Virus record (IMG/VR): IMGVR_UViG_3300049218_000123
Location: 1-31,002 of that record
Length of the DNA stretch: 31,002 nucleotides
From: a virus
Reading direction: 5' to 3' (one strand)
Of the stretch, positions 3,682 through 15,345 are shown one piece after another. Within the stretch, counting starts at the first letter, position 1. Each line of letters opens with the position of its first letter. The translations under genes were made by a program, and so were the position numbers. The notes below the pieces were generated by a model. That model did no database searches, had not been told where the DNA came from, and saw nothing but the letters and a program-made list of their open reading frames with translations.

Positions 3682-4722
3682 TTATTTCATACGTTTATTT
3701 AACTTTTTATCCTTTTCTTTTGGGTTCCGTTGTACTCGATTTAGGTTAAGATGCAACGCTGCGGAGGCGCTTTTCAGATATTCAGGGCTGAACCTCGCAT
3801 AAACCGATTCCGTGATGCGCGTGCTGGAATGGCCGAGGTACTGACTGATTTCGGTCATCGGCACGCCGGCCTCAGCCATCCAGACAGCTGCCGTATGGCG
3901 CAGGACGTGCGGCGTTACCGTCGCCTTTCCTTTTTGGTCGACGAGACCCGCCGCCACTACGGCGGCATGGAAGCCTTTCTTGATAGAAATGATCTTCCGG
4001 CCGCCATGCTCGATGACAAAATCCGAGACCCTGGCTTCATGCAGCTCCTCTAATATCATTCGGGCGTCATCGGACATGGGAAGGATCGCGCGGCCCTTGT
4101 TGCCGGTTGAGCGACCGAGATTGATGATGCCCTTGTTGAAGTCGATATGCTTCCACGTCAGATCGAGGATGGCGGCGCTCCGCGCCCCCGTCGTGAGGGC
4201 GAGAACGATGAACCCCCGGACATGACGAACCTGCGCCGCCTCGATGAGCTGCTGCGCCTCATCGCGGGATAGAGAACGAAGCCGAGGGGGCGCTGCCGGC
4301 GGGAACTCAAATTGCGCCGGATGGCGTTTGTCGATCCAGTTCAGCGCGGCGCGCACGATGGTCAGGCGCTTTCTGATCGTCGCATTGGACAGCTTCTTTT
4401 TTTGCTCTTTAGCGATGTAGCTGCGGCACCAATAGCGGTCGATCTGATCGGGCCGCAAATGTCCTATGTCCGGCTGTATGGCGTTCCAGGCGTATTGTGC
4501 GTCCTTATGCGATGCCATAGCAGTCTTGTCGGCTAAATACTTCTCGACAATGCCATCGATCGTGTCTGCCTCTTTACCGGCGATCAACCTTTTAACATCT
4601 AGGATCGCGCGTTCGGCATCGTTGCGGCTTTTGACAGTTTTAGAGTCGAGAACGCGGCGCTTCGAGCGACCGTCCTCTCGCCAGTACGCATACCACTTTC
4701 CTCTGAATTTGACGGCTCGCAC
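3682..4722 (-). CDS. int: Tyrosine-type integrase
   Basis: Site-specific recombinase that would integrate and excise the phage at the tRNA-Arg(CCT) gene. All catalytic residues are visible: Arg181 in TTGARSAAILDLTW, His272 and Arg275 in PHVLRHT, His298 in YLGHSST and the nucleophile Tyr308 in ESVYARF. The N-terminal part holds an arm/core-binding SAM-like domain (about 55-135). A lysine-rich tail follows the tyrosine. The start is a GTG inside the excisionase-like frame, with AGGGAG upstream; no earlier in-frame start is possible because of a TGA. It is the last gene of the leftward operon and ends at the att core. Confidence 0.95.
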   Translation of the reverse strand: MRAVKFRGKWYAYWREDGRSKRRVLDSKTVKSRNDAERAILDVKRLIAGKEADTIDGIVEKYLADKTAMASHKDAQYAWNAIQPDIGHLRPDQIDRYWCRSYIAKEQKKKLSNATIRKRLTIVRAALNWIDKRHPAQFEFPPAAPPRLRSLSRDEAQQLIEAAQVRHVRGFIVLALTTGARSAAILDLTWKHIDFNKGIINLGRSTGNKGRAILPMSDDARMILEELHEARVSDFVIEHGGRKIISIKKGFHAAVVAAGLVDQKGKATVTPHVLRHTAAVWMAEAGVPMTEISQYLGHSSTRITESVYARFSPEYLKSASAALHLNLNRVQRNPKEKDKKLNKRMK

Positions 4723-5587: not shown

Positions 5588-6451
5588 TCATTGGTACAAA
5601 GTTAGCCTTTCAGCCGCGCGCGTGATTGCGGTATAAGCCCAGCGCCTACCGTCTTCCCTGAAAACGGATGATTCGTTGAAAATCACGATATCATCCCATT
5701 GTGAACCCTGCGCCTTATGGCAGGTCAGCACATAGCCGTAGGTAAATTCCTGCGTACCTTTTTTCTCTGTCCAGGGCAGATCGGCATCGCCGCCGGTAAA
5801 GAATTCCTGCCGCACCTGGACTTTGCGCGTATCGGCTTTTTCATCCTCTAAAGATTTAATCCGCATTTTAATGCGCGGCGCAATTTTGCACGAACCATAA
5901 TCACCATAATCGAGGCTTTCGCCGGCGCGTACCCGCATCGAGAGAGCAATGATCGGGTTGTCTTTGGCCTGCCGGTGCACCTCGGTCAGCATATAGTTAG
6001 GGTTGCCGACCGTGAAAAAGCCCGCGCCTTTGACCGGTGGGAGCTGTGCCGGATCGCCCAGAACCAGAATTTTCGTGCCGAAGCTAAGCAGATCCTTGCC
6101 GATTATCTCATCGACCATCGAACACTCATCGATGATGATAAGCTTTGCGTCCTTAACCTTGCTATCAGGATCCAGCTTGAACGTCGGCTGCAGGTCTCGG
6201 CGTTCCTCGATCATATAGATCATCGAGTGAATCGTGCTGGCATCCTCACAACCCTTGCGGCGCAGCACCGATGCCGCCTTTCCCGTGAAAGCGCCGAACA
6301 GCACGGTGCCCTTGACCTTCTCCGCGATTGCTTTGGCGAGCGTGGTTTTACCCGTGCCAGCGAAGCCGAAAAGCTTGAAAACGGGCTCGTTGGTCTTGAG
6401 CCAGTTTCCCACCTCGGCCAAGGCGACTTCCTGTTGGCTACTCCACGCCAT
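5588..6451 (-). CDS. RecD/Dda-like ATP-dependent DNA helicase, internally shortened
   Basis: Superfamily 1B helicase of the phage RecD-like type. Walker A GFAGTGKT is at residues 29-36, Walker B LIIIDEC at 105-111, motif III GDPAQLPPV at 132-140 and the HRQ arginine motif at 159-161. Motif V CHKAQGSQWDD is at 244-254 and motif VI TAITRAAERL at 274-283. Relatives have about 80-100 further residues between the HRQ region and the RIKSL segment, including the NxTR and GD(R/K)LVCLRN parts of domain 2A. Here GDYGSCKIAPR (183-193) joins RIKSLEDEK directly. The protein may thus be an in-frame deletion derivative. It starts on a TAATG overlap with a mini-ORF, downstream of recT, in a recombination/replication operon. 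Confidence 0.85.
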   Translation of the reverse strand: MAWSSQQEVALAEVGNWLKTNEPVFKLFGFAGTGKTTLAKAIAEKVKGTVLFGAFTGKAASVLRRKGCEDASTIHSMIYMIEERRDLQPTFKLDPDSKVKDAKLIIIDECSMVDEIIGKDLLSFGTKILVLGDPAQLPPVKGAGFFTVGNPNYMLTEVHRQAKDNPIIALSMRVRAGESLDYGDYGSCKIAPRIKMRIKSLEDEKADTRKVQVRQEFFTGGDADLPWTEKKGTQEFTYGYVLTCHKAQGSQWDDIVIFNESSVFREDGRRWAYTAITRAAERLTLYQ

Positions 6452-12677: not shown

Positions 12678-13237
12678 GCCTGTCTGGGACATCCGGCCAC
12701 TCGCGCCACAGCGGTTACGCGCGATCAGCGCATGACTGGTATCGTGAACCGCGCTGGTCAGTCGATGCGCTTCTGGATCGGGTGCGTTTCCGAGGACGCT
12801 CCTGGGACCCATGCTGCGGATCTGGTAATATTCCTGAAGCGATGAAGGAGCGCGGACTGTCCTGTCACGGCTCCGATCTGATCGACCGCGGATACGGCAA
12901 TCAGGTCGATTTCCTAACCGGTTTCTTCCCGGAAGAAATAGATAATATCGTCATGAATCCGCCCTTTAGGTTGGCACTCCCCTTCGCGCGCCGCGCGCTG
13001 GAATTGGCCGATGACAAGGTTGCAATCCTGCAACGAACCGCATGGCTGGAAAGCCGCGAGCGCCATGAGTTCTTCGAATCCTCGCCGTTGGCCATGGTGC
13101 TCCAGTTCAGTCGGCGCGTCAGCATGCCGCCTGGCGAGAATTACCAAGGCGGTGAGACCGGCGGTTCAATTCCGTTCGCTTGGTATGTCTGGGACAAGGA
13201 CCATCGCGGACCACCAACACTCGGATGGCTGGAATGA
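12674..13237 (+). CDS. Solitary phage DNA methyltransferase-like protein (class I, NPPF)
   Basis: 187 residues. The AdoMet-binding motif I is WDPCCGSGNIPEAM (about residues 44-57), an acidic motif II is CHGSDLIDRG, and the catalytic motif IV is IVMNPPF. This order fits N6-adenine methyltransferases of the small phage type. The C-terminal part includes a conserved-looking HEFFESSPLAMVLQFSRRVS and an IPFAWYVWDK strand. No restriction endonuclease is adjacent, so it likely protects phage DNA or marks replication/regulatory sites. Start and stop overlap its neighbours by four bases. Confidence 0.8.
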   Translation: MSLSGTSGHSRHSGYARSAHDWYREPRWSVDALLDRVRFRGRSWDPCCGSGNIPEAMKERGLSCHGSDLIDRGYGNQVDFLTGFFPEEIDNIVMNPPFRLALPFARRALELADDKVAILQRTAWLESRERHEFFESSPLAMVLQFSRRVSMPPGENYQGGETGGSIPFAWYVWDKDHRGPPTLGWLE

Positions 13238-14028
13238 GCGAATTGCCCGATCCACTCGTGCCGACACACGTCGACTGCACAGACCTCGACGGGTTTATGC
13301 TCAATGTCGAACGGTTAATGGCGAGCGAGCTGGTCGCATTGTCATCGCATGAAGTCGTCGCCGCCGGATTATTTTTATGGTGCCGGGCATGGAAGCAGAC
13401 GCCGGCGGCAAGCCTTCCCGACGATGACCGGGTCAACGCCGCTTTCTCACGATTGAGTCCGGCACGGTTCAAAAAGCTGAAGTCAGAAATCATGCGCGGC
13501 TTCATAAAATGCGCAGACGGGCGCCTTTATCACCGTGTCCTTGCTGAAGAAGCGCTGCGCGCCTTTGAAAAAAAGACCGCGTTTCGACGCAAGCGCGAAA
13601 CAGATAAAGAGCGCCTTAAGAAGTGGCGTGAAACGCAGGATGAAACGCGTTTCGAAACGAACCATGAAACGGAATTGAAACGCGTTTCGTCGCGGAAGGA
13701 CAGGGACGGGACGGGGACGGGACGGGACAGGGACCTACCAAACCAAGAATCAAGAAACTTAAAAACCAGTTCTAACTCTCCCGCGCGCGACCCTGTGGAT
13801 AATTCCGGGTCTGGTGGGTCTGGTTTTTTAAATGAAAATTCCGGTGGGGTTTTCGTGCCTACCGCTGCCACCTTGGACGAGATCGTACGGATCGCGCCAG
13901 GCTGGGACATCGTGAAGCTGCTCGCGCTCTACCGCCCTTGGGCCGCCAAACGCGGAGAGGCGAGAGACGAACAGCGCGCCTTCATCGGCTGGTTCAAAAA
14001 TTTCAGCAAGGGCAAGTCGCCAAAATGA
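13234..14028 (+). CDS. DUF1376 (YdaU-like) replication protein
   Basis: 264 residues starting on an ATGA overlap. The N-terminal domain (about 1-110) fits DUF1376/YdaU: DLDGFMLNVERLMASELVAL, then LFLWCRAWKQTPAASLPDDD, then GRLYHRVLAEEALRAFEKK. The middle (about 125-195) is a low-complexity linker rich in Glu-Thr, Arg, Gly and Asp. The C-terminal domain (DEIVRIAPGWDIVKLLALYR) resembles ends of phage replication initiators. YdaU-type genes hold the replication-initiator position in many prophages. The linker DNA carries iteron-like repeats, a G-quadruplex motif and a DnaA box, so the gene may contain its own origin, as lambda O does. Confidence 0.8.
   Translation: MSELPDPLVPTHVDCTDLDGFMLNVERLMASELVALSSHEVVAAGLFLWCRAWKQTPAASLPDDDRVNAAFSRLSPARFKKLKSEIMRGFIKCADGRLYHRVLAEEALRAFEKKTAFRRKRETDKERLKKWRETQDETRFETNHETELKRVSSRKDRDGTGTGRDRDLPNQESRNLKTSSNSPARDPVDNSGSGGSGFLNENSGGVFVPTAATLDEIVRIAPGWDIVKLLALYRPWAAKRGEARDEQRAFIGWFKNFSKGKSPK
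13630..13802. other. Putative phage replication origin inside the DUF1376 gene
   Basis: GAAACG recurs at 13630, 13642, 13654, 13666 and 13677, i.e. at steps of 12, 12, 12 and 11 bases. Two copies are expanded to the palindrome GAAACGCGTTTC (13642-13653, 13677-13688). A G-rich block follows at 13703-13732, then an A-rich stretch, then a perfect DnaA box TGTGGATAA at 13794-13802. This set of iterons, unwinding-prone DNA and a DnaA box in the linker of a replication-protein gene parallels lambda ori in gene O. Function is inferred. Confidence 0.55.
13703..13732 (+). other. Six-tract G-quadruplex motif
   Basis: Six runs of three or four G (13703, 13708, 13713, 13719, 13724 and 13730) are separated only by AC or ACA. 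That is well beyond the minimum G3+N1-7 pattern and predicts a stable parallel quadruplex on the coding strand and in the mRNA. It encodes the Asp/Gly/Thr/Arg-rich linker of the DUF1376 protein. Confidence 0.7.
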
Positions 14029-14631: not shown

Positions 14632-15345
14632 ATGACCATGTTTCAAATCAAAAACCGCTACAATGGCGCGGTACAATTCGAGTGTGAGCTTTCGGCTGAA
14701 GTTAGCTCGGAGCACGTCGACATACAGCTTGGCTTTGCGATCAAGGCCGCGATCAAGGCAAATGCCAACCTGACCCGTGCCAACCTGATCCGTGCCAACC
14801 TGACCGGTGCCAACCTGATCCGTGCCAACCTGACCGGTGCCGACCTGACCGGTGCCAACCTGATCCGTGCCAACCTGACCCGTGCCGACCTGACCCTTGC
14901 CGACCTGCGCGATGCCAACCTGACCCTTGCCAACCTGCGCGGTGCCGACCTGACCCTTGCCGACCTGCGCGATGCCAACCTTAATAGCTTTAAACAAGAC
15001 TTGATCGCCGAAGTGCTTCGCGTACCTGGCGAAATCGACGGGCTTCGCCAAGCTTTAGTAGAAGGCCGTATCGATGGTTCGACCTACAGCGGAGTTTGTG
15101 CTTGTTTAGCCGGTACCGTGGCAAATCTCAAAGGAATTGAAGATTACAACGGACAGACCATCGAAGCCGGCGAAAAAGTGAAATTTACCGCCGACAGCAC
15201 CTCACCGCGCGAGGTATGGTTCATGGGCATAAGCGAGGGAGATACGCCAGAGACCAATCGAATGGCGGCAATCGCGCTGGACTGGATCGACGAAGCTATC
15301 GCCATCCGCGACAATATCCGCGCGACTGTGAAGGTGCAGCAATGA
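14632..15345 (+). CDS. Pentapeptide-repeat protein
   Basis: 237 residues; GGAG precedes the ATG by seven bases. An N-terminal 40-residue cap is followed by 15 consecutive A(N/D)LxX repeats (about 45-119), which should form a short right-handed quadrilateral beta-helix. The C-terminal domain ([20 protein letters not shown], then CLAGTVAN; later [20 protein letters not shown]) is typical of a phage-borne version of this family. Some pentapeptide-repeat proteins (MfpA, Qnr) mimic DNA and bind gyrase, but this repeat block is short and no such role is shown here. Its place in the early operon suggests interference with a host process; function unknown. Confidence 0.85.
14764..14988 (+). repeat. 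15-bp tandem repeats encoding the pentapeptide block
   Basis: About fifteen 15-base units of the type GCCAACCTGACCCGT follow one another. Many are identical at the DNA level apart from one or two bases (CGT/GGT/CTT; AAC/GAC). Such DNA-level identity suggests recent expansion by slippage or unequal recombination rather than selection on protein alone. Confidence 0.85.

Follow-up and report, generated by a model that had tools for sequence, protein, structure and literature searches.

Does the low-complexity, linker-coding part of a phage gene also serve, as DNA, to start replication of the genome that carries it? The question is raised by a DUF1376 gene in a window of 31,002 bases, the whole of an IMG/VR virus record, whose integrase, RecT, repressor-like, terminase and portal genes mark it as a temperate tailed phage. 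The initial annotation had placed an origin of replication inside this gene, built of GAAACG repeats, a G-rich block, an A-rich stretch and a DnaA box. From comparison with related genes, we consider it very probable that the segment is a theta-type replication origin, situated where the phage's own initiator gene encodes its linker.

The DUF1376 gene and its embedded repeats

The Pfam DUF1376 domain covers residues 23-106 of the encoded protein, which passes the PF07120 gathering threshold with 32.2 bits (34.3 in a second run) against a cut-off of 30.1. Its PHROG matches are 22470 and 3992 (replication/primosomal protein); O-like families, which some of its relatives also match, are absent among them. 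The features of the locus are as follows.

13234-14028, plus strand: DUF1376 (YdaU-like) gene, probable replication initiator, 264 aa (PF07120, E=1.5e-07; PHROG 22470 'replication protein', E=3.6e-26)
13300-13551, plus strand: DUF1376 domain, predicted winged-helix (Pfam; AlphaFold2 pLDDT mostly >90 over residues 1-140)
13580-13585, minus strand: outlying iteron core CGTTTC (motif search)
13597-13602, plus strand: degenerate outlying GAAACA, 33 nt 5' of the first perfect copy (sequence; equivalent codons in relatives)
13630-13635, plus strand: iteron 1, GAAACG (motif search)
13642-13653, no strand assigned: iteron 2, palindrome GAAACGCGTTTC (codon phase 0, ETRF)
13654-13659, plus strand: iteron 3, GAAACG (motif search)
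13666-13671, plus strand: iteron 4, GAAACG (motif search)
13677-13688, no strand assigned: iteron 5, palindrome GAAACGCGTTTC (codon phase 2, LKRVS)
13698-13734, plus strand: G block of GGACA/GGGAC/GGGACA repeats, GGACAGGGACGGGACGGGGACGGGACGGGACAGGGAC (G-quadruplex-type motif on the coding strand; family-wide arrays)
13737-13775 (approximate), plus strand: A-rich tract, presumed unwinding element (sequence; AT island past the G block in 103 genes)
13794-13802, minus strand: perfect DnaA box TTATCCACA (not conserved in the family)
13864-14007, plus strand: C-terminal helical domain, residues 211-258, presumed partner-binding (AlphaFold2 model)

The five GAAACG copies start at 13630, 13642, 13654, 13666 and 13677, at steps of 12, 12, 12 and 11 nt, exactly as first annotated, two of them being palindromes; the outlying CGTTTC at 13580 and GAAACA at 13597 are additional to that description. 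The G-rich block, the A-rich stretch and the perfect DnaA box, which reads TGTGGATAA 60 nt past the G block, likewise lie within the gene where they had been reported. Seven GAAACG or CGTTTC motifs fall inside 64 nt, the biggest cluster in 400 first-order Markov simulations being 3, and the clustering is far beyond chance. Perfect copies of GAAACGCGTTTC number two in the array and zero elsewhere in the window, and none of 100 shuffles held two even with one mismatch allowed. The ET codons of the linker are written GAAACG in 32 of 36 cases, against 27% elsewhere. Folding of the strand gives a stable hairpin between both palindromes (z=-2.7), as they are inverted repeats. A blastn search with the repeat core returned no matches among phage records.

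The AlphaFold2 model (58 sequences) predicts an N-terminal winged-helix-type domain, a long helix (101-146), disorder from about 147 to 210 and a three-helix C-terminal domain. All putative origin signals lie 3' of the codons of the DUF1376 domain, where the prediction gives helix up to residue 146 and disorder beyond; the iterons and G block code for the final part of the long helix and for the disordered residues that follow. Iteron initiators share the arrangement predicted here, of a winged helix, a signal-encoded disordered linker and C-terminal helices. Foldseek ranks the plasmid replication initiator domain 4pta first (E=0.059), with 4pql and 5kbj among those next; by VIA-align, 4pql, 4pt7 and 5kbj score Z of about 4.2-4.4, tied with other winged-helix proteins, and the best Z (5.1) belongs to a different winged-helix-like protein. 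We take 4pta, 4pql, 4pt7 and 5kbj, also from their entry titles, to be RepA_N initiators of staphylococcal multiresistance plasmids. This structural match is weak and suggestive only; a sequence search of solved structures gave no relevant match and no RepA_N chain, and the window protein has no match to Pfam RepA_N.

Helicase-loader and/or helicase genes are found just downstream of the DUF1376 gene in sequenced Pseudomonas phages; the window itself shows no recognisable DnaB- or DnaC-type gene in the vicinity of the locus. The winged-helix N-terminus and these downstream genes in relatives fit an initiator role for DUF1376. Just 3' of the initiator region lies a pentapeptide-repeat protein gene (PF00805, 14632-15345) that holds a long near-perfect tandem DNA repeat.

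Recurrence of the module in related genes

Arrays of GGGACA, GGACA, GGGAC or GGGAGA occur in 105 of 148 distinct DUF1376 genes, a proportion inflated by the inclusion of genes found by the repeat itself; in the first, protein-found gene set, a long GGGACA array is present in 39 of 106. A viral scan for (GGGACA)4, made with no reference to the protein, gave at least 119 loci, at least 87 of them with a DUF1376 ORF over the repeat (87/119 among the matches listed), and several of the other loci are truncated copies of DUF1376 genes. The array is on the coding strand in 86 of the 87 DUF1376 genes among the matches listed. The control repeat (GGGCAA)4, also able to spell GQ, fell in DUF1376 genes at 0 of 72 loci. 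At loci found through the protein, the gene itself (108 kb) holds 25 arrays and the sequence outside it (534 kb) one, apparently in a broken DUF1376 gene (L091, Lichenifustis, 3811-4600) whose frame stops early while the G array persists downstream. Scans of genome contigs yielded no relatives in the first and two in the second.

The check for repeats in homologous genes that the initial annotation had called for gave a positive answer: the linkers repeatedly show iterons at helical-turn spacing, then a G array, then an AT island, in this fixed order. The iteron core differs by branch, GAAACG in the clade of the window and GTCACG, CGTAAC, GTAGAC, GATGCA or TGTCCC in others, while the G block, 12-95 nt long, is much alike across branches. 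The element that is constant across the family is the G block and not the GAAACG core. Past it, AT content is 70% in the first 10 nt, 49% in the next 10 and 32-34% beyond 20 nt, compared with 37% overall.

The G block is nevertheless not strictly required family-wide, as about 30% of the sampled genes lack it or have other arrays in its place. Genes without GGGACA often carry purine-rich arrays of a different kind, with a period of 5 or 7 (for example GGAGA, AAGAC and GGGGACA), and no GGGACA array was found in canonical DUF1376 genes far from the branch of the window (L103-L126). A strict family-wide need for four runs of three G, as in a canonical G-quadruplex, is ruled out, since in some genes GGACA, AAGAC and GGAGA arrays take the place of GGGACA.

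Several variants deserve description in their own right. The only DUF1376 gene with an antisense array is that of L152 (3387-4376, minus strand), where (TGTCCC)4 spells VPVPVP and the iterons ACGGTCACCGT remain upstream. An extreme form in L061 (4001-5101; also in L183) consists of a long 12-nt repeat array (QRDV/QRDD) followed by (GGGACA)15. In L017 (4001-5101) an HNH-endonuclease-like segment (CLTCGSIDDLHCDHIRPL...LCRSCH) seems to have been inserted into the linker, ahead of the G block. The gene at 1731-2396 of L144 (minus strand), with zero Pfam or PHROG matches, carries (GGGACA)7 flanked on either side by GTTGGAAC/GGTTCCAAC-like repeats, with TTGTGGATAAG nearby; an unrelated gene may here have the same module.

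The DnaA box fared differently from the repeats. A perfect copy is indeed present in the window, yet it recurs only in L060 and L066, 41 nt past their G blocks, so that 3 of 105 family genes have a box and its part as a general origin component is ruled out. The locus could be imagined as an origin opened by host DnaA at TGTGGATAA, the repeats being auxiliary, which would still be an origin and differ in its opener. The perfect box of the window and the same box in L060 and L066 agree with such an arrangement, as do three boxes observed against a shuffled expectation of 0.04, a figure in which L060 and L066 are near copies. The remaining 102 of the 105 genes do without it, and in the window TTWTNCACA has 2 matches against 1.55 expected, about the chance count, so the box alone is not significant. 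We regard dependence on DnaA as unlikely and retain an origin opened through the repeats.

DNA retained while the reading frame changes

Six close IMG/VR relatives (L002-L006 and L010) and a Rhodocyclaceae contig (L090) carry the same series of GAAACG repeats, mostly at 12-nt steps, followed by GAAACGCGTTTCGTnnnGGAA and GGACAG repeats, always read as ETRFV.EGQGQGQ. The 31 nt at 13677-13707, comprising the second palindrome and the start of the G block, are identical in L002, L003, L005 and L010, where they are read in phase 0 as ETRFVAEGQGQ; in the window they are read one frame over, as LKRVSSRKDRD. The frame moved because the 11-nt step precedes the last palindrome, so that of the two palindromes in the window the first keeps the old frame and the second is shifted. 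Over these 31 nt the DNA is retained and the peptide is not.

The same holds on a larger scale. Arrays of the GGGACA type are found in all three frames, spelling GQ in 52 genes, GT in 31 and RD in 5 for the hexamer arrays, and each dipeptide repeat is nearly always written with one hexamer although many synonymous spellings are possible (GQ as GGACAG, 167/172; GT as GGGACA, 109/112; RD as AGGGAC, 16/17). A tree built from 103 domains requires the frame label to change 21 times, and its well-supported branches force the label GQ or GT to be gained or lost 9-10 times; these counts are approximate, given a short alignment and a quick tree method. Upstream of the G block, autocorrelation peaks at 11, 12, 22 and 24 nt and dips at 9, 15 and 18; lags of 11 and 22 cannot stem from a periodicity of the protein.

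These observations bear directly on the possibility that selection acts on the ET, GQ, GT and RD repeats as a hydrophilic, flexible linker, the DNA repeats being a by-product. The predicted disorder of the segment is what such a linker would show, and the arrays do keep the frame with both domains. Identical DNA read in three frames gives unrelated peptides, however, and the essentially single synonymous encoding, the 11- and 22-nt periods and the arrays with a period of 5 or 7 nt, which pass through all frames, all speak against it. Frame switching and codon choice lead us to reject a protein-level explanation of the repeats, which we hold to be extremely improbable. Repeat conservation independent of frame, which a protein linker would not require, implies that the signals are kept as DNA.

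The arrays might also be functionless microsatellites, generated by replication slippage in a tolerant linker. In favour of this, repeat number varies widely, with blocks of 12-95 nt, and near-identical phage genes (L165, L196 and L207) differ by whole hexamers. Against a mere mutational by-product stand the survival of unit identity through many frame changes, the absence from these genes of another G-rich hexamer repeat, (GGGCAA)4, the fixed order of iterons, G block and AT island, and the 86:1 strand bias among the matches listed. We find this account very unlikely and return to a selected DNA signal.

A candidate in-gene origin and its possible operation

Iteron-type theta origins combine tandem direct repeats spaced at about one helical turn with an adjoining AT-rich element. 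Both are found here: repeats at 12/12/12/11 nt in the window and 11/12/22/24 nt in the family, and an AT island of 10-20 nt, represented in the window by the A-rich sequence at 13737-13775. A DnaA box near the iterons, common but not universal in such origins, is present in the window and absent from nearly all relatives. The GC-skew minimum, a check proposed at the outset, lies at 15009, near the locus, but is confounded by a switch in gene direction at about 11.1 kb and was set aside as proof of an origin. The proposed in-gene origin has gained from the recurrence of its elements in the family and their conservation across frames, and has lost the DnaA box as a general part.

In phage λ and Stx phages, iterons followed by an AT-rich region lie inside the initiator coding sequence, and transcription crosses the origin (PMC7466680, PMC3985674). 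The λ ori in gene O resembles the window in having both elements within the initiator gene, but has four 19-bp iterons where the window has cores of about 6 nt at 11-12 nt steps, and in the window, unlike λ, iterons and AT island are parted by a G block. Pfam places λ O in a family other than DUF1376. λ ori is not known to carry a GGGACA-type array. In plasmid pSK41 (RepA_N), the N-terminal winged helix binds Rep boxes central in rep, the origin encodes the linker, which is reported to be dispensable as protein, and the C-terminal domain is thought to be host-specific (PMC5703833). The predicted layout of the window resembles that of staphylococcal RepA_N plasmids, whose presumed initiator structures 4pta, 4pql and 5kbj are among the top Foldseek matches, but the window is a phage and not a plasmid, has no detectable sequence similarity to them and possesses the additional G block. 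In repABC plasmids, oriV is inside repC and silent recoding of an A+T-rich region abolishes replication (PMC3155836); the origin is again in initiator coding sequence, but it lacks iterons, and its A+T region is large where the island here is short.

Operators and centromere-like sites typically contain palindromic iterons as well, and the segment might instead be another cis element (an autoregulation operator, for example, or a partition-like or packaging site) to which DUF1376 or some other protein of the phage binds. The classification of the gene as a replication protein, the position of the site upstream of helicase genes in sequenced relatives, the AT island adjoining the array and a layout matching the λ O and pSK41 rep origins (PMC7466680, PMC5703833) render such a role improbable, and we continue with the origin.

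Because the order and polarity of the window (iterons, then putative melting site, in a transcribed initiator gene) match those of the λ, Stx, pSK41 and repABC in-gene origins, we propose that the N-terminal domain binds the iterons. The winged-helix domain of DUF1376 would contact GAAACG copies about one helical turn apart on one face of the DNA, and the bound protein would form an oligomeric complex that wraps or bends it. Strain released beside the array would melt the short AT island past the G block, where the replicative helicase may then be loaded. The linker itself is proposed to be dispensable as protein, by analogy with pSK41.

The G block, whose coding (non-template) strand is rich in purines, would most likely aid opening during transcription of the gene: its RNA may stay paired to the template strand as an R-loop and keep the site single-stranded, with a possible G-quadruplex in the displaced strand. 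The strand bias and purine content of the block favour such an RNA-DNA hybrid. In human mtDNA, a transcription-dependent R-loop at conserved sequence blocks of the heavy-strand origin feeds initiation (PMC6317783); the likeness is limited to the G block, as an analogy, since that origin has no iterons and uses RNA-primed initiation by the mitochondrial polymerase. Action through an R-loop is offered as a tentative possibility, and we lend just as tentative a weight to a binding site for a conserved protein or a priming site, a sequence-specific partner conserved among hosts being an equal alternative. One group has an iteron core, TGTCCC, that is the complement of the G-block unit, which would allow the block itself to be a series of weak sites for the initiator. 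On the minus strand at 5588-6451, adjoining RecT, the window encodes an AAA_30/UvrD_C_2 (Pif1/RecD-like) helicase, with a possible link to the G block. Pif1/RecD-like helicases can unwind G-quadruplexes.

We found nothing on GGGACA at phage origins in the open-access literature searched, and no report of DUF1376 at origins in the open literature searched. The chances appear evenly balanced that the GGGACA-type G block is an origin element new to the literature searched, shared by very different phages irrespective of reading frame and promoting initiation through a transcription-dependent R-loop or G-quadruplex or through a widely conserved host replication protein that it binds, while the iterons diversify by clade. 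A G-rich element is thereby named whose role at origins is directly testable. DUF1376, listed in Pfam as a 'protein of unknown function', acquires a probable initiator role and many temperate phages a recognisable origin signature, and the DUF1376 linker offers a natural experiment on a DNA signal that persists through changes of reading frame.
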